Virus record (IMG/VR): IMGVR_UViG_3300005513_000321 | Location: 1-24,727 of that record | Origin: a virus | Length of the DNA stretch: 24,727 nucleotides | Strand: one strand, 5' to 3' | Part shown: positions 9,589 through 23,846 of the stretch, in pieces | Layout of the letters: the number at the start of each line of letters is the position of its first letter | How positions within the stretch are numbered: position 1 is the first letter of the stretch | Made by a program: the position numbers and the translations under genes | Notes under the pieces: generated by a model | Seen by the model: the letters and a program-made list of their open reading frames with translations, nothing else | Database searches by the model: none | What the model was told of the DNA's origin: nothing

Positions 9589-9604
9589 CCCTGACCTCTA
9601 TTAA

Positions 9605-9898
9605 CTATCTTTGCTCAAGCATTCGTAAAAGTTGCTCAACACTAAGAGCACTATCAACAGCAAAATCGCCTGCATGCGCTTTGCTTCTGCCTTTTAAACC
9701 CTGATACACAGTCTGCCAGAATAATAGTGCTAACTCATTGGTTTGCATCGAAACCACACTACCTAAATGCAATTGCGTACGAGAAGTTACAGGTTTAGAT
9801 TTTTTCTCGTAGGCAACAGTTTTAGAGCCAAATGGGGATGACTCCCATGCAAATGGATGCGCTAGAGAAGATGTTTCATAAAGATTAAGAGATGACAT
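9605..9898 (-). CDS. cargo cassette protein, 97 aa, unknown
   Basis: Encodes 97 residues from the ATG at 9898, which overlaps the stop of the preceding gene by one base (TGATG) and has GAGGGG upstream; a GTG at 9904 is the alternative start. The N-terminal half (MSSLNLYETSSLAHPFAWES) looks extended and Ser-rich. The C-terminal half (NELALLFWQTVYQGLKGRSK and VDSALSVEQLLRMLEQR) looks like two or three helices. No signal peptide or known motif is visible. The tight coupling to the 94-aa gene suggests that the two proteins are made in fixed ratio and interact, as antitoxin/toxin or effector/immunity pairs do. That is only a hypothesis. Confidence 0.65.
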   Translation of the reverse strand: MSSLNLYETSSLAHPFAWESSPFGSKTVAYEKKSKPVTSRTQLHLGSVVSMQTNELALLFWQTVYQGLKGRSKAHAGDFAVDSALSVEQLLRMLEQR

Positions 9899-10182
9899 CA
9901 CCACCCCTCTTTTTCAATTAATGTGTCTATAGTTTTTTTCAAATCCATGAATGCCGATTTTGGCAAAGTTACAGATTTTACTTTGAAAAGCTTAACTGAA
10001 GCATCAGCAACAGCACCATTTTCATTGAGAATATGTTCTACTCTAGGACAGAAAAAGGAAACGTTAACATATGCACCACCAGCTGAAGTTTCATAGGGAA
10101 CCAACGACACGACCTCAGCATAGGCGCCGTCGCGGTCTTCGCTTGGAGCTAAGTTAAAATTTTCAGATGATTTTTGCGACAT
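9898..10182 (-). CDS. cargo cassette protein, 94 aa, unknown
   Basis: Encodes 94 residues beginning MSQKSSENFNLAPSEDRDGA. The middle (AYVNVSFFCPRVEHIL and SVKLFKVKSVTLPKS) looks like beta strands, and the end (SAFMDLKKTIDTLIEKEG) like one helix. No signal peptide, no membrane helix, no family recognised. It is the first gene of the I-J cassette and is preceded by a roughly 250-base AT-rich leader holding a candidate sigma-70 promoter. The ribosome binding site is weak (GAGA). It overlaps the next gene by one base. Confidence 0.65.
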   Translation of the reverse strand: MSQKSSENFNLAPSEDRDGAYAEVVSLVPYETSAGGAYVNVSFFCPRVEHILNENGAVADASVKLFKVKSVTLPKSAFMDLKKTIDTLIEKEGW

Positions 10183-10287
10183 TCTTGTCTCGTTAAATGG
10201 ATTCAGTTTTAGTATCGACTGTGCTGAAAGAAACTTTAAGATAATCTCTGTGTTCAGTAGTTGAAGTGATGCATCAATTGATACTTT

Positions 10288-10317
10288 ATCATACTACCGT
10301 TTTGGCACTACGAACAA
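10288..10317 (-). promoter_or_regulatory. candidate promoter of the I-J cargo cassette
   Basis: On the minus strand TTGTTC (10312-10317), an 18-base spacer and TATGAT (10288-10293), about 105 bases before the first gene. The -10 is one base from consensus. The rest of 10183-10429 is AT-rich with no reading frame; it is leader or insertion flank. Confidence 0.45.
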
Positions 10318-10429
10318 ATTTTGTGAAAAGCTATGACACAAAAAGCTTGCTTCTACTTTCTCATTCTTCACGCACTCAGTAATCACGCGTGCACGCCATC
10401 GAAAAAATAGGATTCTCCTCAATCTCATT

Positions 10430-11053
10430 TCATTGCTGATCGCTGGTAAAACTGCCTGCACTGATGACCGCGCCGCCGATTTCCCGCGTCCCGTAAAGCA
10501 CCGGCACCGGATAACCCATCGCGACTGTATTGACCGGTGCGCCAAACGCGTAGTTCGGCTTGTTATCCGTACTGGATGAGGCACCCACGTTGAGCTTGGG
10601 CTGAGGCGTCAGCATCTGAACGACACCACCCAGCAGCATACTGATACCAATACTTGTCAGTGCCGTTGCTGCCAGGCCAACTGCAGTTGTGGTCCCGATA
10701 GCCGCGCCATATGCAGCCAGTGACGCGCCCGCTGTGAAGAACGCCGCAACAATTGCGACCGCACCGATGATGATCTGCAGTGTGCCGCCACGCTTTGAAC
10801 CTTCCAGTACCGGCTCCATCTGAAACTCAGTAGCAGATGAGGACATGTCGAACTCCAGCAGGCCGATATTATCTTTGCCGCTGAAGAAGGCGAACCGAAT
10901 GCCGTTGAGGTGAGCGTTTGATACGAATTTTTTGAAGCCTGGCACCTGTGAGCACATTGCACGCAGCAGCTCCCGTAAATCAGCAACGTGGAACTGGTGA
11001 AGCGGCCCAAACATTTTTGCCATCCGGCCTTTGAGTCGCATGGTTTTAAGCAT
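10430..11053 (-). CDS. I: tail assembly protein I
   Basis: Encodes 207 residues. It matches the lambda gpI plan: an N-terminal ubiquitin-like part (FGPLHQFHVADLRELLRAM) and a long hydrophobic Gly/Ala segment (about residues 90-150, GAVAIVAAFFTAGASLAAYG, nearly the same as lambda GAAAIAGSFFTAGATLAAWG). The end NTVAMGYPVPVLYGTREIGG matches lambda VAQGNVLPVLYGEMRVG. gpI is needed for tail tip assembly and is not found in mature tails. The start at 11053 overlaps the K stop by 8 bases and has AAGGAG seven bases upstream; ATG at 11041 is the alternative. In lambda J follows I directly; here about 1.3 kb of cargo separates them. Confidence 0.92.
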   Translation of the reverse strand: MLKTMRLKGRMAKMFGPLHQFHVADLRELLRAMCSQVPGFKKFVSNAHLNGIRFAFFSGKDNIGLLEFDMSSSATEFQMEPVLEGSKRGGTLQIIIGAVAIVAAFFTAGASLAAYGAAIGTTTAVGLAATALTSIGISMLLGGVVQMLTPQPKLNVGASSSTDNKPNYAFGAPVNTVAMGYPVPVLYGTREIGGAVISAGSFTSDQQ

Positions 11054-11765
11054 CCATCAGCTCCTTTCTGCGCACGATACGCACGGTACGGTTACGCCAG
11101 TATTCGCCATAGGGCACCCGAGTAGACAGGCTCCCGGTGTTATGATGAAGAATGATGTTGTTGCCCAGATAGATTGCGGCGTGGTTAGTTACCGGGGCGC
11201 TGATTCGCATCATGATCATGTCGCCCGCTCGCATTTCCGCTGGCTCAACCTCCACAAACCCTTCTGACTTCCAGTTATCGTCATAAAGGTTTTCTTTGCC
11301 ATTCACCCACCACTCATAGTCAACAGACCAGTTTTTCAGGGTGATGCCGTGCTCACGCTGGTACCAGTCCATGATGAGTGTCCAGCAGTCATTGCTACCA
11401 ATCAGCCAGGGGCGACCGGTGTAGTCGCGGTCAGTGCGCGGGCTGATAGTGCAGAAGTCGCCATCCGGCCACGACATGATGCCCCACTCCACGCCGGAGA
11501 AATCGCACTGAACCCTGTCATGCTCTGACGGAATGAGCTGCGGCACGTCCGGGTGTGAATGGATAACCATCAGGATTTCGCCCTGCGCTTCCGCTGCCCG
11601 CTTATCCTCCGGCGACAGCGTGAAATGCTCTGTCGGCGCGTCAGCGATATTCCGGCAAGGGATGTAATTCTGGGTCCGGCCTGACTGGATGACCAGCCCG
11701 CATGCCTCTTTCGGGTATTCAGCGGCCACATGCTCGCGTATCGCCTCAAGAATCTTTTTGCGCAT
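11046..11765 (-). CDS. K: tail tip assembly protease K (JAMM + NlpC/P60)
   Basis: Encodes 239 residues in two domains. Residues 1-100 are a JAB1/MPN metalloprotease: Glu in YPKEACGLV (about 20) and HSHPDVPQLIPSEHD (about 69-83), which is the HxH-x7-SxxD zinc site. Residues 115-239 are an NlpC/P60 papain-like domain with catalytic Cys in SNDCWTLIMDWY (about 126) and His in NHAAIYLG (about 195). In lambda gpK acts with L and I in forming the tail tip, and the NlpC/P60 part may cut peptidoglycan during infection. All catalytic residues I can place are present. The gene lies two bases downstream of L and overlaps I. Confidence 0.93.
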   Translation of the reverse strand: MRKKILEAIREHVAAEYPKEACGLVIQSGRTQNYIPCRNIADAPTEHFTLSPEDKRAAEAQGEILMVIHSHPDVPQLIPSEHDRVQCDFSGVEWGIMSWPDGDFCTISPRTDRDYTGRPWLIGSNDCWTLIMDWYQREHGITLKNWSVDYEWWVNGKENLYDDNWKSEGFVEVEPAEMRAGDMIMMRISAPVTNHAAIYLGNNIILHHNTGSLSTRVPYGEYWRNRTVRIVRRKELMDA

Positions 11766-11767
11766 CG

Positions 11768-12505
11768 TTATTTACCCTGAAGGTTTGCAGCCGGGAACCC
11801 GCCGAACGGCAGTGGCTGATCGTCACCAAAGCGTGCTTTGCAGTCAGCCATACGTCCGCCGCAGACATCTTTTGACGGGTCATTAGTAGCCGTGCCGTCT
11901 TTGGTGAAATACCTGTTGCCTGCGTAATCGCAGCCGGTACCGGTGCGGTACCAGCCACGCATGCACCAGGTGCAGACAGGAGTGATCTGGCGCGATGGAA
12001 GCTGCAGGCTCTGAATGTCGAAAGGAGAGCAAAGCTCAAAATCCACCTGGGCACGCGTCTCGGATGTTTTCGCATTCACGTAAAACAGCTGAACTCGCTC
12101 TTCCTGCGGGTTGGCGCTAGGATTGCCTGCGGTCCAGTTTGCCGCATCAAGATATTTTGCCAGGGTGGTGTGGATGCGCACCTTCGCCTTCACCATGTCG
12201 TCAAACTGCAGACATAGTGCGGTGACATAGTTGCCGACGTTGCCAACAGAAAGCTTTGGCGTCGGCTGTGAACCGGTGCTGCTCATCTCCATGCCGGTCA
12301 GCTCATAGGGATGCGGATCGTACTCATTGCCCTGCCAGATGATGGACGGCAGGTTTTCTGCTGCATATGACTGCCAGCCTTCGGTCGGCAGGTTGTACGC
12401 ATGAAAGCGCAGCACGGTATCAAGCCCAAAAGCCGTGCCGTCAATTTCAATCAGCTGGACCAGACTCCCCGGCTCCAGCGCCTGAACGTCCTGGTTAAAA
12501 CTCAT
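11768..12505 (-). CDS. L: tail tip protein L (Fe-S type)
   Basis: Encodes 245 residues beginning MSFNQDVQALEPGSLVQLIE. It follows the lambda gpL plan: an N-terminal hub domain (TPKLSVGNVGNYVTALC) and a C-terminal region with conserved cysteines (VCTWCMRG, TGCDYAG, CGGRMADCKARFG). In lambda gpL four of these cysteines bind a [4Fe-4S] cluster in the tail tip. It ends LPFGGFPAANL, typical of the family. It is preceded by an internal terminator at 12517-12540 and lies directly upstream of K. Confidence 0.92.
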   Translation of the reverse strand: MSFNQDVQALEPGSLVQLIEIDGTAFGLDTVLRFHAYNLPTEGWQSYAAENLPSIIWQGNEYDPHPYELTGMEMSSTGSQPTPKLSVGNVGNYVTALCLQFDDMVKAKVRIHTTLAKYLDAANWTAGNPSANPQEERVQLFYVNAKTSETRAQVDFELCSPFDIQSLQLPSRQITPVCTWCMRGWYRTGTGCDYAGNRYFTKDGTATNDPSKDVCGGRMADCKARFGDDQPLPFGGFPAANLQGK

Positions 12506-12516
12506 TTTTCACCCAA

Positions 12517-12540
12517 TAAAAAAGGGCGCTGATGCGCCCT
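12517..12540 (-). terminator. internal late-operon terminator between M and L
   Basis: On the minus strand GGGCGC-ATCA-GCGCCC followed by TTTTTT. It ends about 11 bases before the ATG of L, so L, K, I and J depend on antiterminated transcription. Confidence 0.85.
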
Positions 12541-12557
12541 GTTGTTATCGTGACCTG

Positions 12558-12899
12558 TCACGGTGCGAAAGCCTGCTCGAAGGTAAAACTGATTTCCACG
12601 AAATTTCCGATGATGAAGGCGGGCCGGATTGAATCAGACTTTACGCGGTAGAGCTTTTTCTCTCCCCACGGATTGACCCACCAGCAGGAGGTGGTGACGT
12701 GTGCTTTGAGAAAAGCCCTTATGATCGCCATTTCAGCTTTGCTGCCGCTGCAGGTTACCGGCCAGGACTCGCGCTGATCGTTAATCCCGACACCTGCCAC
12801 CTGCTTGTAGCCGTCACCGAATTGGGCCTGAAGGGTGGCAACGTTAACCTCCTCCGTCGCCCCCGTTCTGACGCACCATCCAAAAGTATCAATAGCCAT
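12558..12899 (-). CDS. M: tail tip protein M
   Basis: Encodes 113 residues beginning MAIDTFGWCVRTGATEEVNV. It matches the lambda gpM / minor tail protein M family: QFGDGYKQVAGVGINDQRESW in the first half, WWVNPWGEKKLYRV in the middle and FVEISFTFEQAFAP at the end, with normal length (lambda M 109 aa). It joins the end of the tape measure to the tip hub. It begins 15 bases downstream of H and has no odd features. Confidence 0.92.
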   Translation of the reverse strand: MAIDTFGWCVRTGATEEVNVATLQAQFGDGYKQVAGVGINDQRESWPVTCSGSKAEMAIIRAFLKAHVTTSCWWVNPWGEKKLYRVKSDSIRPAFIIGNFVEISFTFEQAFAP

Positions 12900-12914: not shown

Positions 12915-15389
12915 TTACCCGCCCCGGTAAAGTATGCCGCCTGGAAGTATCTCTTTCTTAAGGCGGTCAGAAAGTACAGTCTGGATCATGCTCTGCAACT
13001 GTCGGGCAGTATTGGCAGTGTTGGCGCTGCTTGTTTCACCGGCCCCGCCACCCTCAACCGTGACAGGCGCGCTGACAGAAATAGATGTACCGCCGCTGCC
13101 ACCACCATTACCTATCGCACGAACACCCAGTGAGCCATCAGCCGCACGCGTCAACGGCATAATCGCTTCAGGACCCGCCTCGCCCATCAGACCAGCACCT
13201 TTAGCGAAGGCAAACAGTGTCGGAGAACTGACGACCGATCCGCTATACTGGCTCAGGTCATGGGACTCGTACACGCCCCCTTTGGCGTTGAGCGTCAGGT
13301 TGTTGTAGGAACCGCTGCTGAATGAATTATTCGCTGTGCCACCGCCAGCCGATGCCGCGCCAACAGCAGCGCCACCCACAGAACTGACAATGCCACTCAC
13401 CAGATTAACTGCGGCCATTTGCAGGGCCACTTTAGCGATCATACTGAGTACCGATGAGGCCCAGTCTTTCCAGCTGGCTTTATTACCCATGAGCATGGAT
13501 GAAACATTATCCAGTGCGCTGTCCATTGAGCTGCTGACGACGCTTGCCGCTGAGGCTGAATAGTTTGATGAAGTGTCCAGCCAGTTCGCCAGACCATCAC
13601 TCACCCCACCCATCCAGTCGGACTGCATGGCATCCATGCTTTTGTAGTAGTCCTCCTGAATTTTCAGGCGGTCGCTCATGGCGCTGCCGATTGCGCTGTT
13701 TTCACGCTCATAAAGCGATTTGGTGATATCGCCAGACTGATACTGTGTCTGAAGCTCGCGCTGCTGATCGAGGTATTCGCGCTCGATGCTCAGGCGCTCC
13801 TTCATGCGCTGACGCTCTTTGTCGCCCTGCCCGGCCCCCTGAACATCGATATTCAGCGATGATTTTGCATTGCCGTTCTGCGCCTGCAGGTTTGCAACAA
13901 AAGCCGCTATCTTGGCATTCTCTTCATTCGCTTTTTTGACTGCATTAAGCCGATCAACTTCCTGCGCTAGCAACTCCAGGCGTTTCTGCTGCGTGCCGTT
14001 CAGCCCCTGCAGCTTGCCGTCTGCTATGTCGAACTGAAGCTTCTGCTGCTCGGTCACCACTGCAGTCTTTTTACCGGTTGTGTCAATCAGCTCAATCTGG
14101 CGCATGTAACTGCGCTCTGCCGCTTTGAATGCTGACTCCAGTTTTGCACCGGCTGTATACTTCGGTGGCTTCCCGTTCGTCTGGCCCGGTGCCAGTCCGA
14201 AGTCCAGCAGCGATGAAGCACTGGATGGCGTAACATCGGGGGATATCCTGATATCTTTCGGCTGCTTATTCTGCACTGACAGGCGTCCGGTCAGCGTGGC
14301 AATTTCGTCTGATACCGCCTTGACGCTGTCGTCTTTACCCATGATCCAGCCGAGGAAGGTCTGACTGCCGTCATACATTCCGTTGCCGCGATCCTTTGCA
14401 TTGCTGTTTAGGTAATCAATACGTGCCTGAATCTGATCCGGGTTATTCATATCAACCCGGTTACCCAGCGCCGCCATACGGTTGGATGATGATGTGGCAA
14501 GTTTTCCTGCACCAGCTGCTGCTTTAATCAGCCATCCGGCAAGCTGCGCTACCTGACTGACAAGGTCGGCAATGCCCTGCAGTACTTTCGGATCAGTCAA
14601 TACATCGTGAATCTCTGAGAGGGAGTTATTCAGCGGACTCAGGTCAACGTGCGCCAGTCCGGCTGCGATCTCCATCTTCAGCCCCTTCACCTGAGCTTCC
14701 ATATTCTGAAACAGGGTGTTGACCTTAATCAGGTCATCAATAGATTGCGGGTCAGGTGCTACGCCATAATCTTTCGCCAGCTGAATGAACTGATTCAGCT
14801 TTGCATTGTTGTTGTCGAATAGTGGAAGAAGCTTTGAAAGGTCATTACCCAGGCTTTCAAGGATGGTGACCTTTCCTGCGTTGGTGCTGATTTTGCCCAG
14901 CGCCTCACCAATCGCCAGCAGCTGTTTGTCCGGTGAGACCTTCGACAGCTTATCGGCAGACAGGCCAAGAGAGTTCAGTGCATCTACTGCTTCGCCTGAC
15001 TTGTTCAGGACCGCATCACCGATTTTATCGCTGAGGTCTTTGAAGATGTCGGCCATGTTGTCACCAGCAACACCGGCTTTCTCTGCCGCGAACTGCCACG
15101 CAAGCAGCTCCTGCGTGGACATCTTCAGCGACTTCGCCCACTGGTCTGTGGCATTAACCTGTTCGGACGTTGATTTAAGTAAAGCGAAACCGGCTGTGCC
15201 TGCCGCGAGCGCTGCTGCCTGAACCGCGCCGCCTACTGAGAGCAGTGCGGCTGAACTGGCAGCGGCGTCCTTCTGGACCTGCTTAGCCCACTTTTCAGTG
15301 GCACGCTCGGCCTTGTCCATGCCTGAAAGGAAGCCGCCCACTTTTGCGATCAGGTCAATCGTCAGGGTACCGAGTGACTTACTGGCCAT
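12915..15389 (-). CDS. H: tail tape measure protein H
   Basis: Encodes 824 residues (lambda H 853). The N-terminus holds a tape-measure start (KSLGTLTIDLIAKVGGFLSG) and a hydrophobic stretch (about 45-72). Long charged helices run from about 410 to 600 (AEERSYMRQIEL-type regions, LSIEREYLDQQRELQTQY), and a second hydrophobic segment lies at about 655-690. The C-terminal signature FAKGAGLMGEAGPEAIMPLTRA is shared with lambda gpH. The protein sets tail length and is ejected into the cell envelope during infection. GGAGATTTT precedes the ATG. It is intact, although the major tail protein that would polymerise around it is missing from this prophage. Confidence 0.94.
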   Translation of the reverse strand: MASKSLGTLTIDLIAKVGGFLSGMDKAERATEKWAKQVQKDAAASSAALLSVGGAVQAAALAAGTAGFALLKSTSEQVNATDQWAKSLKMSTQELLAWQFAAEKAGVAGDNMADIFKDLSDKIGDAVLNKSGEAVDALNSLGLSADKLSKVSPDKQLLAIGEALGKISTNAGKVTILESLGNDLSKLLPLFDNNNAKLNQFIQLAKDYGVAPDPQSIDDLIKVNTLFQNMEAQVKGLKMEIAAGLAHVDLSPLNNSLSEIHDVLTDPKVLQGIADLVSQVAQLAGWLIKAAAGAGKLATSSSNRMAALGNRVDMNNPDQIQARIDYLNSNAKDRGNGMYDGSQTFLGWIMGKDDSVKAVSDEIATLTGRLSVQNKQPKDIRISPDVTPSSASSLLDFGLAPGQTNGKPPKYTAGAKLESAFKAAERSYMRQIELIDTTGKKTAVVTEQQKLQFDIADGKLQGLNGTQQKRLELLAQEVDRLNAVKKANEENAKIAAFVANLQAQNGNAKSSLNIDVQGAGQGDKERQRMKERLSIEREYLDQQRELQTQYQSGDITKSLYERENSAIGSAMSDRLKIQEDYYKSMDAMQSDWMGGVSDGLANWLDTSSNYSASAASVVSSSMDSALDNVSSMLMGNKASWKDWASSVLSMIAKVALQMAAVNLVSGIVSSVGGAAVGAASAGGGTANNSFSSGSYNNLTLNAKGGVYESHDLSQYSGSVVSSPTLFAFAKGAGLMGEAGPEAIMPLTRAADGSLGVRAIGNGGGSGGTSISVSAPVTVEGGGAGETSSANTANTARQLQSMIQTVLSDRLKKEILPGGILYRGG

Positions 15390-15440: not shown

Positions 15441-15968
15441 TTATTTATTTTTGGGACTCGCGTAACCTTCTAAGTCAAACTTAAACTGTTTAGCGCCTGC
15501 CTGATAAAACTCAGCTTCAATAATGACTTTTTTGTGAGAGCTAAGATTTTTTATAAATGACGAGGACTGATCGAAAAAAATCACGTCCGAATTACCATTA
15601 CCAGACTCTGACATTGAGAATTTTTGAATTTTCTCACCATCAAATTTAACCGATACATGACAATCGTTAAATGAATTGCATGAAAACTGCCCTTTACTAA
15701 CTACCAGCAATGCTTCACTTGGTTGGAGATCTTCTGGTTTTTGGCCTTCTTTCAGCTCCGTTTTTTTCGAACGTAGGACAATAGCCATTTTCGAGCCGCC
15801 GTTGTATGGAAACTCAAACTCTACGGAATTGTCAGATTCGGTTTGAATGAATTTTTGCGCGGTTCCACGCATTTCGTCGTTATTGTAACTAGTGATCCAA
15901 TCAGCAGCAGACGCTGAAAACGAACACATTATCATCGAGGAAAAAATTGCTAATCTAATAGTTTTCAT
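15441..15968 (-). CDS. secreted protein of unknown function (175 aa)
   Basis: Encodes 175 residues. The first 21 (MKTIRLAIFSSMIMCSFSASA) form a signal peptide with an A-S-A cleavage site before ADWITSYNND. The mature part is soluble with a likely beta-sheet core (SVEFEFPYNGGSKMAIVLRS and KKVIIEAEFYQAGAKQFKFD) and one close cysteine pair (FSCNSFNDCHV, about residues 97-103) suitable for a periplasmic disulfide. Family not recognised. The start overlaps the stop of the membrane protein by four bases (ATGA), so the two are coupled. It sits between the T and H tail genes, where phages often carry lysogenic conversion genes. A periplasmic or surface role in the lysogen is inferred. Confidence 0.75.
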   Translation of the reverse strand: MKTIRLAIFSSMIMCSFSASAADWITSYNNDEMRGTAQKFIQTESDNSVEFEFPYNGGSKMAIVLRSKKTELKEGQKPEDLQPSEALLVVSKGQFSCNSFNDCHVSVKFDGEKIQKFSMSESGNGNSDVIFFDQSSSFIKNLSSHKKVIIEAEFYQAGAKQFKFDLEGYASPKNK

Positions 15969-16165
15969 TTAGCAGCCTCTTGTTTAATTACCACTTCCTG
16001 AGGCTTTAATTGCTGAATAGCACGGCAAATGCAATACGGGATCACAGCCCATGCCATTCCCATTGCGGCTCCTGCTGCTTGCTGAGGTGCACTATCAGCC
16101 AGAAAAACCATAACGACGCCTTGAATAAAACCAATCACTGAACAAACTATCGATGCCTTCCACAT
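15965..16165 (-). CDS. small two-helix membrane protein (66 aa)
   Basis: Encodes 66 residues from MWKASIVCSVIGFIQGVVMV. Two hydrophobic helices (about 4-21 and 30-50, AAGAAMGMAWAVIPYCICRA) flank a short loop, with a charged C-terminus (QQLKPQEVVIKQEAAK). The ATG at 16165 has AAGGA at proper spacing; the frame stays open to 16237 but includes the promoter. Family not recognised. It is coupled to the secreted protein by an ATGA overlap and both have their own promoter. Small phage membrane proteins of this size can block superinfecting DNA entry, which is a hypothesis here. Confidence 0.7.
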   Translation of the reverse strand: MWKASIVCSVIGFIQGVVMVFLADSAPQQAAGAAMGMAWAVIPYCICRAIQQLKPQEVVIKQEAAK

Positions 16166-16197
16166 ACTAATGTCCTTATCCCCAAGAGTTAGGAATA

Positions 16198-16226
16198 ATC
16201 CTAAAGAAAATTTTGACATATGTGAA
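16198..16226 (-). promoter_or_regulatory. promoter of the membrane/secreted cargo pair
   Basis: On the minus strand TTCACA (16221-16226), a 17-base spacer and TAGGAT (16198-16203), about 33 bases before the ATG at 16165. The downstream leader holds TTGGGGATAAGGA, shared with the lipoprotein gene at 4417. Confidence 0.5.
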
Positions 16227-16258
16227 GCATTTATCATTCAGCATTTGCTGCTTATTCG

Positions 16259-16731
16259 TTATCCCCAGCTGGTCATGGCTTCATTAAGTGAAATCGGCTC
16301 ATCAGCAGCAGTGACTTTAGTGAAGTGCAGCGTGAAGTCAGTCGGGCTGAACGGCGGCGTTTTCGCATCCCTGTTGACGTTAGCGATGATGCTTGCCACC
16401 ATCCCTGCGCCCCACTCGGTACGCATCATGGGGTTCAGGCTTCCGTAGCGTTCCCGGTATTTTGCCCAGAGTTGCGACTCTTTGAAGGTGATCTTCTCAC
16501 GCGCTTCGGCGATGGTGCGGCCACCGATGCCGTTGAGGACGAGCTCGCACCAGAATTCGTCTTCGGCGCTGAGCTCGAAGTCTTTCCCAGGTCGTTAACT
16601 TCCTGAATGGCAACCAGCAGTGCAATGGTGAGCGCACCATCAAGAGAGCCACGATCCGGGTCAGCCTCGCCGGTAATGTCCGCCGGGGTAAAAACCGGCT
16701 TGCCAGTGATGATGCAGAACGGACTTCCCGC
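16259..16731 (-). pseudogene. 5'-truncated tail assembly chaperone G and G-T frameshift remnant
   Basis: From about 16715 the minus strand reads ITGKPVFTPADITGEADPDR and on to LLVAIQEVNDLGK. The heptamer GGGAAAG (16582-16588) follows, in the G-GGA-AAG phase used by lambda-type G/T genes for -1 slippage. Without slippage the frame ends at 16435 after a Ser-rich tail. With -1 slippage it continues DFELSAEDEFWCELVLNGIG to a stop at 16259, giving a T-type extension of about 110 residues. The 5' end is missing: the frame is closed by TGA at 16732-16734 and has no start codon before it. Upstream sequence belongs to the terminase gene in another frame. G and G-T are chaperones for the tape measure during tail assembly. 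Without a start the gene should be silent. Confidence 0.75.
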
Positions 16732-17033
16732 TCACGCATGGTGAGCAGTTTGTCATAGCGCTTCAGCCCGTCCTCGCGCGACAGCCAGCTCAGCTCAAAT
16801 TCTTCAATCTGCATCGTCAGCAATCGCGACTGAACAACATGACGGCAATACATTTCCATCATGTCGCGGTGAGTTTCTGTAAATGAATTTGCTGGATTGT
16901 CATTCACCAGCCGGACCCACACGCTAATCTCGGGATCGCTGAGATGAATGGACGGCTGCAGCCTGCTTTCAGCCAGAGCTGGCAGCGAGACAGCAGACGT
17001 CGCAGCCAGAGACTTTCTGCCTCGCTGTGCCAT
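16497..17033 (-). pseudogene. terminase small subunit, truncated and fused out of frame to tail gene G
   Basis: The reading frame encodes 178 residues. Residues 1 to about 112 match the P27/Terminase_4-type small terminase of HNH-associated enterobacterial phages: MAQRGRKSLAATSA at the start, MMEMYCRHVVQSRL (about 59-72) and YDKLLTMREREVRSASSLA (93-111). From residue 113 the chain becomes low-complexity Arg-rich (RTLPARLTRIV, RAQRRRRILVRARPQRHRW), which is gene G read in the wrong frame. The normal end of the family (an RxTQQ-type tail) is absent. AAGGAAAA precedes the ATG. The large terminase, which should follow, is missing. The product could not package DNA; whether the chimaera is made is unknown. 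Confidence 0.8.
16582..16588 (-). promoter_or_regulatory. -1 frameshift slippery heptamer GGGAAAG (G to T)
   Basis: Minus strand GGGAAAG in the phase G-GGA-AAG, the same heptamer as lambda G/T. The zero frame leads to a Ser-rich tail ending at 16435, and the -1 frame to the T extension ending at 16259. The site survives although the 5' part of G is deleted. Confidence 0.8.
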
Positions 17034-17134
17034 TACTTTTTCCTTTTTTTCTGGACGTTTTTAAAAAAGAAACTGAGGGCGCGGTCTTTAAGGTTTTGCT
17101 GCCAGAGCTTTGTCCCTCCCCCCGTGCCTGCCAT
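17033..17134 (-). CDS. possible 33-aa basic peptide upstream of terminase
   Basis: A short frame on the minus strand beginning MAGTGGGTKLWQQNLKDRAL and ending NVQKKRKK, whose TAA overlaps the terminase ATG (TAATG). The overlap and the strongly basic tail suggest coupling, but there is no good ribosome binding site and the length is small. The Fur-like site lies four bases before its ATG. It could equally be leader sequence. Confidence 0.3.
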   Translation of the reverse strand: MAGTGGGTKLWQQNLKDRALSFFFKNVQKKRKK

Positions 17135-17436: not shown

Positions 17437-17727
17437 TTACCAGATAACGCGGCCATCATCGTCGAACTCAGTCACTGTTCCGCCATTCTCCAGACGCTGC
17501 TTCACTGAGTCATGGCAACGTTTGCAAAGTGACTGGAGATTGTCGGGATCATGGAATAGCGCAACATCGCCTTTATGTGGCGTGATGTGGTCAACTATGG
17601 ATGCTGAGATAACCTGATTGCGCTTGAGGTGAAACTCACACAACGGTTGCTTCTGGAGCTGGTGATAGCGAAGGCGATACCAGCGCTTAGAGTTGTATAA
17701 GTTGTGCCATGGTGAAGTGCTGGCCAT
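17437..17727 (-). CDS. phage HNH endonuclease
   Basis: Encodes 96 residues. It has the H-N-H fold with a CxxH / CxxC-type metal site: CEFHLKRNQV (Cys30), ASIVDHITPHKGD (catalytic His in VDHI, about 47), DNLQSLCKRCHDSVK (Asn about 63, CxxC 68-71 and His72). Length is normal for the small HNH proteins found just upstream of terminase in HK97-like phages, where such proteins work with terminase in cutting and packaging DNA. AGGAAA precedes the ATG. The gene looks intact, but its terminase partner is truncated. Confidence 0.92.
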   Translation of the reverse strand: MASTSPWHNLYNSKRWYRLRYHQLQKQPLCEFHLKRNQVISASIVDHITPHKGDVALFHDPDNLQSLCKRCHDSVKQRLENGGTVTEFDDDGRVIW

Positions 17728-17851
17728 TCAGCGTTTCCTGCTGGCTAAATGTGGATGTGTTTAACCCTCGGCAATGGTGAGCCAACCAGCCGATGATTCA
17801 TCGTTTATATGCTGAAAAGTTAACTCGATAAATGCACTTTTAAGCACAATA

Positions 17852-17874
17852 TAAAAAGCCGCCCTTGAGCGGCA
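17852..17874 (-). terminator. intrinsic terminator after the 71-aa gene
   Basis: On the minus strand GCCGCTCAAGGGCGGC followed by TTTTT, directly downstream of the 71-aa gene. The gap 17728-17880 holds no gene that I can support. Confidence 0.75.
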
Positions 17875-17880
17875 GTGTAA

Positions 17881-18096
17881 TTACTTGACCTTCGCTGCTT
17901 CCTGTATAGCATCAGCTAAAGCTTCAATGTTATTTGCAACACCATTCAAAGAATCAGCAACACGTGTTGAGTTGGTATTTGCGGAAGAAGCTCCTAATGC
18001 TGCTTTAGCCAACTCTAATGCAGCATCTAAAGCAATTATTCTCTTCTTCTCTGCCGATGTAGCTCCGCCAGCCGACCTTAAGTAATTATCAAGCAT
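17881..18096 (-). CDS. small helical protein (71 aa), unknown
   Basis: Encodes 71 residues beginning MLDNYLRSAGGATSAEKKRI. After the N-terminal part it is almost wholly Ala/Leu/Asn-rich helix (LDAALELAKAALGASSANTN and LNGVANNIEALADAIQEAAK), which suggests a helical hairpin or a small coiled-coil oligomer. No signal peptide, no membrane span. GGAGG precedes the ATG, but a CCTCC eight bases further up could pair with it. It lies downstream of the 222-aa membrane protein and has its own terminator. Function unknown. Confidence 0.65.
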   Translation of the reverse strand: MLDNYLRSAGGATSAEKKRIIALDAALELAKAALGASSANTNSTRVADSLNGVANNIEALADAIQEAAKVK

Positions 18097-18100
18097 AAAC

Positions 18101-18118
18101 CCTCCTTATCAATGGAGG
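18101..18118 (-). promoter_or_regulatory. hairpin covering the ribosome binding site of the 71-aa gene
   Basis: On the minus strand CCTCC-ATTGATAA-GGAGG: the five bases of the Shine-Dalgarno sequence can pair with CCTCC upstream in an eight-base loop. The stem is short, so it may act as a weak translational control or be fortuitous. Confidence 0.35.
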
Positions 18119-18273
18119 TCATAAACTAACCGCAACCTTAATACTATGAAAGAGAATTTTTCTAATTTCGTCGGACACCTAACAGTTTGGCTTACCAAGC
18201 CTGTAAATCTAATTCTGCGAAGATGCCAGTATAAAAATTAATTTCTCACTATTTTTCTAAGTTTTATAAATAA

Positions 18274-18942
18274 TTAATTCTCTTTTACTCTATGCTTTGC
18301 CATTATTCTTTCGGCTTTTCTTTCCATACTCCTCAAAGTCTGATTGGCTCTAGACCTCCACATGGATTTAAGGCTTTTCTCTATTGTAACCCTTGGGTCC
18401 CAGTCATCGCGCTTTGGTATTTTAAATATCTTTCTTAATTCATCAGATATCTCAATTGAGTAAAGCCCAACTTTTGCATAAGACCTACGTCGCTCAGCAT
18501 AGTAATGATGAACATCATCGTAATCATATGCAGGACTATTTGTGATCTCTCGCAATTTTTCTTTTGCTTTGTAGAGTTCAACACTAATGTTTTGAAGCTT
18601 ATAAAGCATCAATGGATCAAGGTACTTATGCTCACCTTTAACTTCGGATAGATTAAACGTCGGAATGTCCACTTGAGGCTCGTATTCGTGTTCATTAGGT
18701 TCTGGATAGAATGGATCAAATCCCTGATCCCAAGAAACTTCACCGCATTTAGCGGTAAACTCATCTAACAGAAATATGAGCTGTACAATGATGTAGTTCC
18801 TTTCTGTCTTACGCTTCCTTATATCAAAGTAAATATCCTTACCTGTATTAACAATAAGAGGCACTGATAGGGCAGCAACTGCACCCAAAAAGGGGTAGAG
18901 TTTTGCGGGATCATTAACTAATTCTTCAAAAAAAGACATCAT
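18274..18942 (-). CDS. membrane-anchored protein of unknown function (222 aa), moron
   Basis: Encodes 222 residues beginning MMSFFEELVNDPAKLYPFLG. One hydrophobic segment (about residues 15-33, LYPFLGAVAALSVPLIV) is followed by a basic stretch (DIRKRKTERN) and a second moderately hydrophobic segment (YIIVQLIFLLDEF, 50-62). The rest is a cytoplasmic-looking charged helical domain with acidic patches (FDPFYPEPNEHEYEPQ) and a very basic C-terminus (MERKAERIMAKHRVKEN). It could be a membrane-tethered, nucleic-acid- or membrane-binding effector, but I know no family. The gene is AT-rich compared with the lysis genes, has its own promoter and lies between the lysis cassette and HNH, a position used by phages for exclusion and defence cargo. 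Confidence 0.7.
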   Translation of the reverse strand: MMSFFEELVNDPAKLYPFLGAVAALSVPLIVNTGKDIYFDIRKRKTERNYIIVQLIFLLDEFTAKCGEVSWDQGFDPFYPEPNEHEYEPQVDIPTFNLSEVKGEHKYLDPLMLYKLQNISVELYKAKEKLREITNSPAYDYDDVHHYYAERRRSYAKVGLYSIEISDELRKIFKIPKRDDWDPRVTIEKSLKSMWRSRANQTLRSMERKAERIMAKHRVKEN

Positions 18943-18970
18943 CTGTTCTCAAGGCGGCGGGGTGCTATGG

Positions 18971-18999
18971 AGAATAATGCTAACTTTTTATGAACTCAA
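18971..18999 (-). promoter_or_regulatory. promoter of the 222-aa moron
   Basis: On the minus strand TTGAGT (18994-18999), a 17-base spacer and TATTCT (18971-18976), about 29 bases before the ATG at 18942. It gives the gene expression independent of the late promoter. Confidence 0.6.
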
Positions 19000-19055
19000 G
19001 CAAATGAAAGGTTAGTGATCTGCACATTGCTCTCTTATGAATTGCTGCACTCCGC

Positions 19056-19340
19056 CTATTTTCTTTCCAGTTTTAGGATGGCAGCCCTGTCAATGTTGCA
19101 CTGCCCCAGAGCACCATATAACTCTGCGTTGAGGCTTACGCTGTCACCGAACGTCATATCCTGTGATGGCGCTGGAACGTCAATCTGGCTGGTCAGTTCA
19201 GCCGGAAGGCTTAGCCGATGCTGTTGCACTGCCCGGTACTCCACCAGCGGCTTTTGCTGCGTCCCGCAGCCGGTCAGCAGCATCAGGGGGAATAGGAGCA
19301 ACAGCACACTTGTCCGCCGCAAGGTAACGCTTAATTTCAT
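19056..19340 (-). CDS. Rz1: o-spanin Rz1 (outer-membrane lipoprotein)
   Basis: Encodes 94 residues. The signal peptide MKLSVTLRRTSVLLLLFPLM ends in the lipobox L-T-G-C (Cys25). The mature part starts GTQQKPLVEYRAVQQHRLSLP, with prolines in the middle and a C-terminal part ending KLERK. It begins inside the Rz gene in another frame and extends beyond it, the arrangement of P2 LysB/LysC-type and other overlapping spanins. Together with Rz it should span the periplasm and fuse the two membranes in the last step of lysis. Confidence 0.87.
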   Translation of the reverse strand: MKLSVTLRRTSVLLLLFPLMLLTGCGTQQKPLVEYRAVQQHRLSLPAELTSQIDVPAPSQDMTFGDSVSLNAELYGALGQCNIDRAAILKLERK

Positions 19341-19635
19341 TCTGTAGTTTCCGGTTCTGCTGGGCTGTTACGGCGCGCTGCTCTGTGACCTGACTCATCA
19401 CTTCGTTTTGCTGTTTAACGGCTGTCACCAGCTCAGTGACACTTGATGCCAGACCATCGTTCTTAGAGCGCAGGTCGTTAATCTGCTCGTCTTTGCTGTT
19501 TGCCAGCTTCTCAAGCCTGTCGTTTGTCGCTTTCAGCTGTGAGTTACTGGCGTTAAGCCCCCACAGCGCCACGCAGATAAGACCGATGATGACCAGACCT
19601 GAATTGTTTCGGATAAAGCCGATTACGTTGAACAT
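19198..19635 (-). CDS. Rz: i-spanin Rz
   Basis: Encodes 145 residues. An N-terminal membrane anchor (about residues 12-28, SGLVIIGLICVALWGLNA) is followed by a long coiled coil (about 30-108: SQLKATNDRLEKLANSKDEQ and NRKLQNEIKRYL). After this comes a Cys/Pro segment (ADKCAVAPIPPDAADRL) and an Ala/Gly tail. This is the inner-membrane spanin that pairs with the Rz1 lipoprotein encoded in the overlapping frame. The first codons overlap the last 13 bases of the endolysin gene, so the lysis genes are translated as a chain. Confidence 0.9.
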   Translation of the reverse strand: MFNVIGFIRNNSGLVIIGLICVALWGLNASNSQLKATNDRLEKLANSKDEQINDLRSKNDGLASSVTELVTAVKQQNEVMSQVTEQRAVTAQQNRKLQNEIKRYLAADKCAVAPIPPDAADRLRDAAKAAGGVPGSATASAKPSG

Positions 19636-20255
19636 AGAATCCCCTTAGATTTTGATAAGCGGGATTTCCGGTCGTCCAGACCATTGGTGCCACCGTTAAT
19701 GATTCTGGTGATGCGGATAACATCATCAGAGTCAGCCAGCTCGTTTAAGCCGTTATTCTTCCACCATGCCGCAGCAGACATCGCAGCAAAGCGATAGCCC
19801 AGCAATAAATCTGGATTCGCCACCACGTCAGCGCCAAGTTGTTTCACCAGTGCTGCATAGTTCGCCTTGCCGGTGACCTGAATCAGGCCCCGACCGCGAT
19901 AGCGGTAACCATCACCTGAAGCAACATCACCATTCCCGTTACGGTTTGCGTAAATGATGCTGGCAATCATCTTCTGGTTAGCCACATGCATCGCATTACG
20001 ACCATAGGCGCGGGCCTGCTCAGCGGTGATGCGCTTACCAAACATTGCGGTAAGCGCGTTCTCGCTGTAGTTCAGCCCCTCTTCCACCTTCAGGAACCCG
20101 GCTGACTCGTGCCCCGTCTGCGCCAGAAAGTGAGCCTGACGCAATGGCGTACTTATCTGGAAAGCAGAGAGGCTTGCCGCTATATGAGGAAACCATGCAT
20201 CACGCAGCGCATTACTCACGCCGGTCGCAAGCTGAAAACTACTGGCTGTCAGCAT
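19623..20255 (-). CDS. endolysin, GH19 chitinase-like lysozyme
   Basis: Encodes 210 residues, all one glycoside hydrolase family 19 domain. FLAQTGHESAGFLKVEEGLN contains the catalytic Glu50 (GHESAGF) and the second acid at 58 or 59 (VEEGLNYS). GDGYRYRGRGLIQVTGKANY (about 113-132) is the conserved substrate-cleft segment, and IINGGTNGLDDR is the family's C-terminal signature. It cleaves the glycan strands of peptidoglycan. No signal-arrest peptide is visible, so release depends on the holin encoded just upstream, whose gene overlaps this one by 17 bases. Confidence 0.93.
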   Translation of the reverse strand: MLTASSFQLATGVSNALRDAWFPHIAASLSAFQISTPLRQAHFLAQTGHESAGFLKVEEGLNYSENALTAMFGKRITAEQARAYGRNAMHVANQKMIASIIYANRNGNGDVASGDGYRYRGRGLIQVTGKANYAALVKQLGADVVANPDLLLGYRFAAMSAAAWWKNNGLNELADSDDVIRITRIINGGTNGLDDRKSRLSKSKGILCST

Positions 20256-20601
20256 TACTGTCTCCCAATCGCTTATCTATCTGGCGGCGTATCCTTGTTG
20301 ATATGTAATCCACACCGAGGAAGCCAAGGAACACCGCAGCAACCCTCGTTATGTCCTCACTAAAGTGCCAGTTGAACGCCGAACCAATCACCTGCAGGCT
20401 TGGTTGCAGGAAGAAGGCGAAGACGCTGCACATCGCAGCATCAAGCAGGCGGCGTGACCATGCGTCTTTACCAACGTAAGTGGCTCTTAGAATCGCCATG
20501 ACTCCGGCAAGACCCGCATAGCCGGTTTCGTTTTTGTGGGCATAAAGCCAGGCGATCAGGCTTGCCCAGAACCCAACGTCTTTATCCGGCATGCGTTTCA
20601 T
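20239..20601 (-). CDS. lambda-family class I holin
   Basis: Encodes 120 residues from MKRMPDKDVGFWASLIAWLY. Three hydrophobic segments (about 29-40 YAGLAGVMAILRA, 55-75 AAMCSVFAFFLQPSLQVIG, 85-100 TRVAAVFLGFLGVDYIS) and a basic C-terminus match lambda S107, as do ATYVGKDAWSRRLLDAAMCS and DYISTRIRR. The first residues MKRM resemble the lambda dual start (MKM), where the longer form is an antiholin and the shorter the holin. Here ATGs at 20601 and 20592 may play the same part. GGAGGTGAGG precedes them. The frame stays open to 20718, but that region has no ribosome binding site. It makes the membrane lesions that free the endolysin. Confidence 0.87.
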   Translation of the reverse strand: MKRMPDKDVGFWASLIAWLYAHKNETGYAGLAGVMAILRATYVGKDAWSRRLLDAAMCSVFAFFLQPSLQVIGSAFNWHFSEDITRVAAVFLGFLGVDYISTRIRRQIDKRLGDSNADSQ

Positions 20602-20706
20602 CCTCACCTCCGTTAATTGGCAGGTGCTGTCAGTAGTCATAAGAAAGATGCGCAACACCACGGTGTCAAAAGTGTGTGTGGAGACTGATTGGTGTGCGCA
20701 AAAACG

Positions 20707-20732
20707 AAAAAGGCCCACCGAAGTGAGCCTTT
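20707..20732 (-). terminator. terminator after hicB
   Basis: On the minus strand AGGCTCAC-TTCG-GTGGGCCT followed by TTTT, about 20 bases after the hicB stop. It isolates hicAB from the lysis genes unless transcription is antiterminated. Confidence 0.75.
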
Positions 20733-20753
20733 GAATTTATTATTTGATGCCTG

Positions 20754-21161
20754 TCAGGCAGCGACTAATTCAAGCCGCTTGCCCAGCGCTGAGAGCGCCT
20801 TCTGAACAGTATCTATTTTGGTCGAGTGGTGCAGATCGAAGATGCGCGTTACCTCCTGCTTTTTAACTCCCATGCGTGAAGCCAGCTCAACCTGAGTTAA
20901 GCCGGAAGCAAGGAAAGCATTAAGCAGTAGCACCTTCGCCGACACACTCGCCGGAACCTCTACGAAATCACCGGTTACCGGCCCAGGTGCCGGGACAGGC
21001 TGGTTATCTTCAAAGTAGAAATCAAATGAAGTAACCAGCGCATCCAGCCCCATCGCCAGCGCTTCCTCACGCGTATCGCCCTGAGTCAGCGCCTCCGGTA
21101 TATCCGGGAACGAAACCACATATCCGCCGTCGCACGGCTCAAGATTAATCGGGTATCGCAT
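20754..21161 (-). CDS. hicB: HicB antitoxin
   Basis: Encodes 135 residues. The first 45 (MRYPINLEPCDGGYVVSFPD, IPEALTQGDTREEALAMGLD) are the HicB RNase H-like fold that binds and blocks HicA. The C-terminal 60 (FLASGLTQVELASRMGVKKQ, EVTRIFDLHHSTKIDTVQKA) are an HTH (XRE-like) domain that binds DNA and represses the operon, as in the E. coli HicB. Length fits. It follows hicA by 48 bases that contain a perfect hairpin. The ribosome binding site is weak. Confidence 0.95.
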   Translation of the reverse strand: MRYPINLEPCDGGYVVSFPDIPEALTQGDTREEALAMGLDALVTSFDFYFEDNQPVPAPGPVTGDFVEVPASVSAKVLLLNAFLASGLTQVELASRMGVKKQEVTRIFDLHHSTKIDTVQKALSALGKRLELVAA

Positions 21162-21185
21162 ATCGTCTTAGTGAAACTTCGCGAG

Positions 21186-21207
21186 AACCAGCCCCGGAGG
21201 GCTGGTT
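21186..21207 (-). promoter_or_regulatory. perfect 9-bp hairpin between hicA and hicB
   Basis: AACCAGCCC-CGGA-GGGCTGGTT, 9 bp with a tetraloop, beginning three bases after the hicA stop. It has no T-run, so it is not a plain terminator. It may stabilise the hicA mRNA end, partly attenuate transcription into hicB or guide RNA processing. Confidence 0.55.
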
Positions 21208-21209
21208 AG

Positions 21210-21386
21210 TTATTTCAGGCCTAACTGCTTCATTATCGCCTTTCGCAGTGGTTCTTTTAACTCAGCGCCGGGATGCCTCGGCATTACACTTCGCTTCCCG
21301 TTGTATCTCAGCTTCAGATGGTTAGTACCGTTTGAAACTTCGACTCCCTGAGATTCAAGCCACCGCCTGAACTCGCTCTGCTTCAC
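21210..21386 (-). CDS. hicA: HicA toxin (mRNA interferase)
   Basis: Encodes 58 residues from a GTG: MKQSEFRRWLESQGVEVSNG, then THNHLKL-type core (catalytic His in NHLKLRY, residue 24), KRSVMPRHPGAELKEPL and a KQLGLK end. It is close to the E. coli HicA along its whole length and folds as a double-stranded-RNA-binding-like domain that cuts mRNA and tmRNA. AGGAGGAG lies two bases before the GTG; there is no in-frame ATG nearby. All expected residues are present, so the toxin is probably active. It is the first gene of the pair, as usual for hic. Confidence 0.95.
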   Translation of the reverse strand: MKQSEFRRWLESQGVEVSNGTNHLKLRYNGKRSVMPRHPGAELKEPLRKAIMKQLGLK

Positions 21387-21412
21387 TACTCCTCCTGTCT
21401 GTTGAACATGGG

Positions 21413-21444
21413 ATTATAGTAAGCATTTATGCTTACCATGTCAA
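21413..21444 (-). promoter_or_regulatory. hicAB promoter with HicB operator in the spacer
   Basis: On the minus strand TTGACA (21439-21444), a 17-base spacer and TACTAT (21416-21421), partly overlapping a TATAAT one register off. The spacer and part of the -10 are filled by a perfect inverted repeat GTAAGCAT-TT-ATGCTTAC (21419-21436). HicB bound here would block polymerase, so the operon should be autoregulated. Confidence 0.8.
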
Positions 21445-21482
21445 CATTATTGTTTACTCAGGAGTGAGATAAATGCTCTTTT

Positions 21483-21551
21483 GATAAAAGGACCCTGACG
21501 CGAAAGCGGTAACTGCCTTGCCCGTCGGCAACAGGGTTAATTCTTTTTATC
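21483..21551. ncRNA. folded element in the late leader (candidate structured RNA)
   Basis: Two nested arms close the element: GATAAAA with TTTTATC (21483-21489 / 21545-21551) and ACCCTG with CAGGGT (21492-21497 / 21532-21537). Inside are two small hairpins, TTGCC/GGCAA and CGC/GCG around TTTC, as in a three-way junction. T-rich sequence flanks it on both strands. It lies between the Q gene and hicA, in a region with no reading frame. It could be part of the late leader, a terminator or a separate small RNA; I do not recognise it from memory with enough certainty to name it. Confidence 0.4.
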
Positions 21552-21565
21552 TTTCAGGATATTTA

Positions 21566-21602
21566 AAATAAAAACGCCTCAAGGCTGGTGAGGCCCGAGG
21601 CG
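21566..21602 (-). terminator. late leader terminator (tR'-like)
   Basis: On the minus strand CGCCTC (21597-21602) pairs with GAGGCG (21575-21580), followed by TTTTTATTTT. It lies about 65 bases after the Q gene, where lambdoid phages terminate the late-promoter transcript until Q modifies polymerase. The late promoter should lie in 21605-21670, but I see no strong match there; the IR GATAAG/CTTATC (21631-21662) is the only other structure. Confidence 0.7.
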
Positions 21603-21666
21603 CTTTGACATCCACATTTGGAACTGACTTTTAGCAGATAAGCTGCACTGCTTGTAATCGACCTTA

Positions 21667-22095
21667 TCAGATTACTAAGGAAAATGCGGACCGCGTGAGA
21701 GGTTTTTTCAATATTTTTTTCGGTGTCAGTTCGGCATCCATGTCCAGCCGAACATCAAGCATCGCCAGACAGCCCTCAATAAAGCCTTCAGCCATCTGTA
21801 TTTCAATTCTCACTATCTTCTCATCCCGCCTGGCCTGCTTTGCCAGGGTGCGTTTTGAGATATTGAAAAAGTAATGCAACACAATGATTGCGTGCTCATC
21901 CGGGCGCTTTTCTTTAAGTCGAGCCAGACAGCCCTCAATGATTAATCCGTCATTATCGCTGCAGGTGAGCGTTAATTTCGAATCCTGCGACAGCAGACCT
22001 TTAAAGCCTGCCGCAATTGATGAGTAATCCACGCCGCTGCTGTCCGATTTTGCCCAGCCAGCCCAGCGCTCCAATACCTGTGACATGTCACGCAT
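21667..22095 (-). CDS. Q: late antiterminator Q (phage 82 type)
   Basis: Encodes 142 residues from MRDMSQVLERWAGWAKSDSS. It matches the Phage_antitermQ (Q82) family across its length: the SGVDYSSIAAGFKGLL segment (about 20-35), the CSDNDGLIIEGCLARLK segment, and an HTH-like part (HYFFNISKRTLAKQARRDEK) with EGFIEGCLAML near the end. Q loads on RNA polymerase at the late promoter and lets it pass terminators, here at 21566, 20707, 15399, 12517 and 9076. The ATG at 22095 is chosen for its AGAGGA site; a GTG at 22113 is possible. The preceding DUF968 gene ends 21 bases upstream. Confidence 0.92.
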   Translation of the reverse strand: MRDMSQVLERWAGWAKSDSSGVDYSSIAAGFKGLLSQDSKLTLTCSDNDGLIIEGCLARLKEKRPDEHAIIVLHYFFNISKRTLAKQARRDEKIVRIEIQMAEGFIEGCLAMLDVRLDMDAELTPKKILKKPLTRSAFSLVI

Positions 22096-22116
22096 ATTTA
22101 ATCCTCTCCACACACT

Positions 22117-23133
22117 TTATTTTTTATCTGTCCCGATAACGCCGACTGCAATCGCGAAATCCAGGAACCTGAATAGCAGTTCAACCTGACTGCCGTAATT
22201 CGACTCAAAAAGTTTTGGGTCGCGGTGTAACTCGTCGTGATGCGCCCTGCAAAGCGGTATCACGAATAAATCATGGGCCTTTGTTCCCATTCCTCCCTGT
22301 CCATGTCCGATGATGTGATGAGGATCGTCCGCCTGACTGCCGCAACATGCGCAGCTTTGCGACTTAACCCACCGTGTGTATTTCTCACTCTCCCAGCGCT
22401 TACGCTTGGGCCGCTTCATGAATGATTCTGGTGATTCCGGGTCAGTACGTAAGCTAATTATCTTTTTGACGACCTGAGCAGCATCCTGAATAACTTCGCG
22501 TGCCGGACGCATCGGAACAATCCGCGACTCTTTGAGTTCGCCAGCCTGTATGGCTTCCTTTGGCATGCGCAGTACGCGCCGCGCTGGTGCCTCCGGTATC
22601 AAATCAATCAGGTCATTCAGTGAGGCCCACCAGCATAATTCAGGTAGTGTCATCTGGTGATCGCCGCTTAGCGCCATCTGGCTGCATGCAGCTTTGATTA
22701 TCCAGAGTGCGGTATTGCCTTTGGCGATATTCTCCAGGCTACCAGGTACGCCATTTTCCCTGAACTCATTATCGTGGCTGTAGCAAAGAGACACCAGGCC
22801 GTTTTCGATTTCTGACACTGTGAATTCATGGTGATGCCATGTTTCGGGCTTTTCCCACTGACAGCAGCCAAATGACTGGACGAAGGATGCCAGCGCATTA
22901 GAACCACCAGCAGCCGCTATCACACGTTCGTGACTGAAGAATGGAATCAGTGAGGGTTCATCAAGTAGTGGCTGGGTGCCGTCATTCAGCCGCCCTGACG
23001 GCAGGTCTGCCATATCCATTGTCGGTGTGCTGACCACAACGCGAGATTTGAAGAGCTTCAGCAGCTCCGGCCCCGGCCTGAAAAGTACAATCCCTGTGCG
23101 TGGCGCTATTTCTGGTGTAAGCAATGCTCTCAC
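22117..23133 (-). CDS. DUF968 HNH-type phage protein
   Basis: Encodes 338 residues from a GTG start (MRALLTPEIAPRTG). The C-terminal third is an HNH/DUF968 domain with CACCGSQADDPHHIIGHGQG (about residues 258-277, CxxC and DPHH), and LCRAHHDELHRD (about 291-302), so the metal and catalytic positions are present. The N-terminal two-thirds (PGPELLKLFKSRVVVSTP and WHHHEFTVSEIENGLVSLCY) lacks a motif I can name. DUF968 proteins are common between antirepressor or nin genes and Q in lambdoid phages, with probable nuclease roles in recombination or replication. The GTG overlaps the TGA of the antirepressor gene by four bases (GTGA). Confidence 0.88.
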   Translation of the reverse strand: MRALLTPEIAPRTGIVLFRPGPELLKLFKSRVVVSTPTMDMADLPSGRLNDGTQPLLDEPSLIPFFSHERVIAAAGGSNALASFVQSFGCCQWEKPETWHHHEFTVSEIENGLVSLCYSHDNEFRENGVPGSLENIAKGNTALWIIKAACSQMALSGDHQMTLPELCWWASLNDLIDLIPEAPARRVLRMPKEAIQAGELKESRIVPMRPAREVIQDAAQVVKKIISLRTDPESPESFMKRPKRKRWESEKYTRWVKSQSCACCGSQADDPHHIIGHGQGGMGTKAHDLFVIPLCRAHHDELHRDPKLFESNYGSQVELLFRFLDFAIAVGVIGTDKK

Positions 23134-23846
23134 TCAGCACCGCCTGCAGCTTTATGCGCTGTCCATAGCCCGCCAATCCACTGGACGCCCTTCGCGGTAA
23201 AGCGGGACTGACTGAACGCATAGTTAGAGTCGGTAGTGGTGCCGGTTCTCACTTCAAATCGACCAGCCTCAATATGTTGGCTGTAGGGTGTCAGGACGCC
23301 ATTGAGGCGGTACATAACCCGGCTTTCAATCAGGAACAAGCGTAATTCCGGCTCTTTGGCCTCAAGAAGTTTTGCCACCTGGCGGAATGTCATTGAGCCG
23401 GTGGCCGTGACGTAACGATCCATGAAGGCAACCTTTGGTGCAGCAATGGCAAGCTGATTGGTAAGCTGAAGCTTTTCCTCAGCAAGGTCAGCGGCCAGGC
23501 GCAAAGCTTCTGGCAGAGTTTGAGGCAAGCGAGGAGACAGGCTTTCCTCTAACTCATGCAATCGCTTAATTACTTTCATGCGGAGGATGGCACTGTAACC
23601 GGTGATGAGGCATTCGGTGTGCTCACGGTCGAGATGATACTCACTCTGCTGGCGGTTCATGCTGTCAAAATAGATGTGAGCAAATTTGCTCGCATCTTCC
23701 TGAAGCTGAAGCAGCATGACTTCAATGTCCCGCTTAACATCTGGATGACGCTTCGCTGTGAGATCAGCAATTTCACGGCTGGTCATGATTGGGGCATGAA
23801 TGGCACTGCCGGCAGACGTAACGACGCCCGCTGATTGATTTAGCAT
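23130..23846 (-). CDS. phage antirepressor, Rha + KilAC domains
   Basis: Encodes 238 residues from MLNQSAGVVTSAGSAIHAPI. Residues about 20-105 are a pRha regulatory domain (MTSREIADLTAKRHPDVKRD, EHTECLITGYSAILRMKVIK). Residues about 120-238 are the KilAC/ANT domain (KVAFMDRYVTATGSMTFRQV, AKLLEAKEPELRLFLIESRV, FSQSRFTAKGVQWIGGLW). Such antirepressors bind the repressor or operators and help induction. The ATG at 23846 has GGAGAA upstream; a longer frame to 23948 would start nearly at the -10 box and is rejected. It is the first gene of an operon continuing into DUF968 and Q. Confidence 0.9.
   Translation of the reverse strand: MLNQSAGVVTSAGSAIHAPIMTSREIADLTAKRHPDVKRDIEVMLLQLQEDASKFAHIYFDSMNRQQSEYHLDREHTECLITGYSAILRMKVIKRLHELEESLSPRLPQTLPEALRLAADLAEEKLQLTNQLAIAAPKVAFMDRYVTATGSMTFRQVAKLLEAKEPELRLFLIESRVMYRLNGVLTPYSQHIEAGRFEVRTGTTTDSNYAFSQSRFTAKGVQWIGGLWTAHKAAGGAE

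Follow-up and report, generated by a model that had tools for sequence, protein, structure and literature searches.

Prophages can be inactivated by deletion, and deletions in such grounded (cryptic) prophages have been reviewed; DLP12, Rac and Qin of E. coli are integrated prophages that have lost functions in this way (PMC6379469). In HK97, the binding site of the small terminase lies 15-29 bp downstream of the cos cut, and cos cleavage is stimulated by an HNH protein (PMC11331095). HK022 (NC_002166) and HK97-like phages have a complete head module, lambda-type tail genes and the G/GT frameshift organisation, and the downstream part of G/GT is annotated in HK022 as a frameshift product. We analysed a stretch of viral DNA of 24,727 nt (IMGVR_UViG_3300005513_000321, positions 1 to 24,727), referred to here as the window. 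It shares late gene order, lambda-type tail genes and frameshift organisation with these phages and has the features of an HK97/HK022-like siphovirus late region, namely HNH, TerS, a G/GT frameshift and the lambda-type H-M-L-K-I-J order. Unlike them, however, it does not have a complete head module, and the TerS of HK022 has no match to the window. We consider it about 80% probable that the window is an arm of an integrated HK97/HK022-like prophage made defective by one illegitimate deletion of 7.6 kb between terS and G. Comparison established which block is missing, where the breakpoints lie, that the tail, lysis and Q genes still present are intact, and where the element is inserted.

A 178-aa fusion ORF (16497-17033, minus strand) consists of the N-terminus of TerS and 66 out-of-frame residues of G. 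The first-pass annotation had placed a fusion of terS to G near 16696-16735, with TerS reading normally to about residue 112. Both statements were borne out: a match to the phrog_12559 profile and the alignments of relatives put the switch to wrong-frame G after residue ~110-112, and the limits of homology on both sides narrow the junction to 16700-16706. The truncated small terminase gene (16700-17033, minus strand) keeps ~110 of 144 codons, and positions 1-110 of 140 in the phrog_12559 profile match from 17033 down to 16700 (E 1.8e-58). Over the 110 residues queried, its product shares 100% amino acid identity with the TerS of L209 (IMGVR_UViG_3300048920_000628), a relative that retains the head genes. 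The truncated tail chaperone gene G/GT (16258-16705, minus strand) has lost its first ~72 codons and is 96.7% identical to its counterpart in L209. Homology to G/GT spans 16258 to 16704-16706, the point up to which the G of relatives could be matched, and homology to terS DNA starts at 16700, with the window following L209 terS base for base from there to 16745. Relative to L209, 7,610 bp are missing at the junction.

It had also been stated that G is out of frame. This applies to the fusion ORF; the frames of the G/GT remnant itself are normal. A GGGAAAG slippery heptamer lies at 16582-16588 (minus strand), and both the heptamer and the frame downstream of it are the same in L209. A -1 slip at G GGA AAG leads into DFELSAEDEF..., after which the GT frame is open to its own stop; no internal stop was found in the GT remnant when read in its correct frame. 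Judged from its sequence, the frame change inside G is the normal lambda-type programmed G-to-GT frameshift site. Damage as the cause of this frame change was rejected, since the GGGAAAG site is also present in L209 and the frameshift is annotated in HK022.

Alignment with related prophages, which the first-pass annotation had proposed, found both segments present in them and separated. In ten related prophages and phages, terS and G lie 7.52-7.64 kb apart in the same order as in the window, and the spacing is 7.5-7.7 kb in further sampled genomes. An IMG/VR search with TerS identified the nearest head-bearing relatives (L209, L212, L213, L214, L215 and L218), in which the spacing is 7,610-7,614 bp; their G is 93-97% and their TerS-side DNA 89-91% identical to the window. 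Natural adjacency of terS and G in an intact relative would speak against a deletion. However, no match spanning the junction was obtained among 392 family and 61 genus genomes, and in intact relatives the two segments were never adjoining and always 7.5-7.7 kb apart.

The block in L209 encodes TerL, portal, protease, major head protein, head-tail adaptor, head closure and Neck1, and continues with the tail terminator, the major tail protein and the start of G. L209 resembles the window in gene order, tape measure (98%) and lysis genes (94.5%), but it retains this 7.6-kb head and major tail block and is without two accessory ORFs that the window carries at 15441-16237. When head-module ORFs of at least 90 aa from L091, L165, L006 and HK022 were used in tblastn, the only matches in the window were to TerS, to G/GT and to ORFs antisense to them. 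The gene list of L209 and these searches agree with the earlier claim that large terminase, portal, protease, capsid, connectors, major tail protein and the 5' part of G are absent. TerL, portal, capsid and major tail protein are absent from the record, and genes needed for virion formation have been lost. Head genes may be present elsewhere in the host genome, outside the 24,727-nt record.

The junction had been named as a place to look for direct repeats or microhomology, and 5-7 bp were found: the breakpoints share TTGCC (5 bp) in L209 and most relatives and up to TTGCCAG (7 bp) in L215. An overlap of at least 6 bp is expected at ~0.2% (about 0.002) of random breakpoint pairs in terS and G. 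If more distant relatives take the place of the parent, just 1-5 bp are shared, since these depart from the true parent in sequence. The exact parent phage was not found, so the microhomology is read from relatives and is possibly only 5 bp. The loss was probably caused by illegitimate recombination at this microhomology. We propose a single event in which replication slippage or end joining fused the 5-7-bp direct repeats of terS and G; it would have removed 7.6 kb with TerL, portal, protease, major capsid, connectors, tail terminator and major tail protein, as well as those ends of terS and G that face each other. The prophage would then be defective, and induction would lyse the cell without producing particles. 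The comparison with relatives and the profile matches agree with the earlier view that a single recombination event took the head module and left the lysis genes, the remaining tail genes, Q and the cargo genes.

On the tail side, the tail tip gene J (5846-9064; PF09327, PF24801, phrog_31) is open and full-length for its domains. Genes I, K, L and M (10430-12899; phrog_32, phrog_30, PF05939) are intact, with no stops relative to L006 and L165, and so is the 824-aa tape measure protein H (12915-15389; PF09718, phrog_2854). All six genes are on the minus strand, and all six reading frames are open. With L165 as outgroup, non-synonymous/synonymous changes in the kept tail genes were 70/305 on the window branch vs 55/284 on the L006 branch (p = 0.43); the GT remnant, which contributes 4/3 and 4/0 to these counts, was read in a frame shifted by one base, with hardly any effect on the totals. 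For J alone, non-synonymous changes were somewhat more frequent on the window branch (34/142 vs 13/121). General relaxed selection on the kept tail genes is absent by these counts, and the deletion is therefore probably recent. A window branch whose ratio is like that of an intact relative fits recent inheritance and not a maintained new use. Three small ORFs of 145 aa (phrog_5954), 99 aa and 94 aa lie between I and J at 9108-10433; I adjoins J directly in L165, L010 and L015.

The two accessory ORFs (175 aa and 90 aa; 15441-16237, minus strand) lie between GT and H and are co-linear in L006, L213 and L218 at ~89-92%, which indicates that they were acquired before the deletion. The 175-aa ORF has a signal-like N-terminus and the 90-aa ORF belongs to phrog_12304; no DNA match to the pair was found in phage records.

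Upstream of terS, the late region is also kept. A GACCGCGCCCTC block at 17073-17089 and a G-run at 17114-17124 form a putative cos region (17073-17124, minus strand); the AAAGACCGCGCCCTCAG block and the G-run are conserved across 13 aligned sequences, which is consistent with a role as cos. The window keeps the HNH endonuclease gene (17437-17727; PF01844), intact lysis genes for holin, endolysin and Rz (19056-20718; phrog_126, 181 and 214), with an Rz1-like ORF assigned by position (19056-19340), and an intact late antiterminator gene Q (21667-22113; phrog_79), all on the minus strand. Other ORFs lie among them. A 222-aa ORF between HNH and lysis genes (18274-18942) matches the PADLOC candidate defence family PDC-S67 (E 2e-31), and a HicA/HicB-like toxin-antitoxin pair is located between holin and Q (20754-21386). 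A 416-aa ORF (23915-24727; L289:5066-6316) is on the strand opposite to the late genes and had no Pfam or PADLOC match.

The left end of the window is bacterial. Positions 1-1767 encode a DUF6404 protein and a LacI-type periplasmic-binding-domain protein, and are recognised as host flank by identity to a Pantoea/Erwinia-group genome, G410 (99% over 1-661 and 98.5% over 477-1824). Genomes placed in one genus with G410 include Mixta and Erwinia records, and one of the closest relatives of the window's tail is a prophage on a P. agglomerans plasmid. The identity ends at 1824, inside the intact tRNA-Leu(taa)-Cys-Gly cluster of G410, and 1768-1824 (minus strand) corresponds to the 3' end of tRNA-Leu(UAA), the att core and left prophage border. 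There is no complete tRNA in the window and an Rfam search gave no RNA gene at the att site, which is identified as the tRNA-Leu 3' end by comparison. On the strength of the 99% G410 flank and the tRNA-Leu border, the element is integrated in a Pantoea/Erwinia-group chromosome, within a tRNA-Leu gene, as a defective prophage would be. The record covers a prophage arm and stops short of the integrase. In G410 (L202:898-8047), the tRNA-Leu 3' end occurs a second time ~5 kb away, together with a duplicate of part of window 477-661, which suggests another element or a rearrangement at the same tRNA-Leu site.

Other origins of the junction must be weighed. The first-pass annotation had asked how many strains share it; in IMG/VR and the GTDB species genomes no second copy was found, and it is known from one record. 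A contig from another IMG/VR record (L289) is 100.000% identical to window 17742-24727 (6,986 bp) and carries a further 5.5 kb of early region, including an S24-type repressor (L289:1-12489). It ends exactly at 17742, 1 kb from the junction, which it does not cover, and no self-repeat near 17742 that might explain this end was found. The single record, the stop of this identical contig and a breakpoint overlap of just 5-7 bp could point to an assembly or library artefact, in which two phage fragments were joined at a short shared word. However, k-mer assemblers require overlaps far longer than this, chimeric reads would need to dominate, and both sides match one family of intact phages in correct order and orientation, so that an artefact is quite improbable. 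An illegitimate exchange that joined the terS of one phage to the G of another, instead of an internal deletion, would account for a G/tail side that is nearer to relatives (97-98%) than is the TerS side (89%); L006 and L165, moreover, have the tail of the window together with other head modules. Yet L209-like phages hold both modules at the expected spacing, one event in one genome is enough, and the mosaic divergence can be older than the deletion; we regard such an exchange as unlikely.

The products of the deletion could also have been put to new use. With J, I, K, L, M, H, lysis genes and Q intact, the window had been described as a step toward a tail-only particle, similar to an F-type tailocin. 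Lambda-type assembly requires tube, terminator and chaperone for a tail, and TerL, portal and capsid for a head. It had been conceded that no tail tube can form without the major tail protein, and the comparison with L209 does place that gene in the deleted block. G/GT has also lost its first ~72 codons, and tail terminator and connectors are gone too; thus no tail should assemble unless the missing proteins were supplied in trans. The complete tail module of F-type tailocins is not present, no second strain was found and selection is unchanged, with no mark of a long-lived lineage. The proposed step is therefore unsupported and a tail-only particle in the making is extremely improbable. Since the putative cos, HNH, Q and lysis genes are kept while TerL and head genes are missing, a related helper phage such as L209 could conceivably package and spread the deleted prophage as a young phage-derived satellite, although we think this very unlikely. 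A PICI-type satellite, with a compact genome free of phage lysis and tail operons, was rejected as the window retains lysis, Q and tail genes.

In conclusion, internal deletion within one prophage is our preferred explanation, and the window is best read as an ordinary, well-documented kind of prophage inactivation, freshly grounded. Like DLP12, Rac and Qin it is an integrated prophage that has lost functions through deletion, but its deletion appears to be recent, and erosion has yet to reach the late genes that remain. The prophage can probably no longer make virus particles, and if still inducible it would lyse its host without them. Existing knowledge of prophage decay is unchanged by this deletion. 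What the window offers is a clean snapshot of prophage inactivation, with a single event, exact breakpoints, named lost genes, a known insertion site and close intact relatives at hand for comparison.
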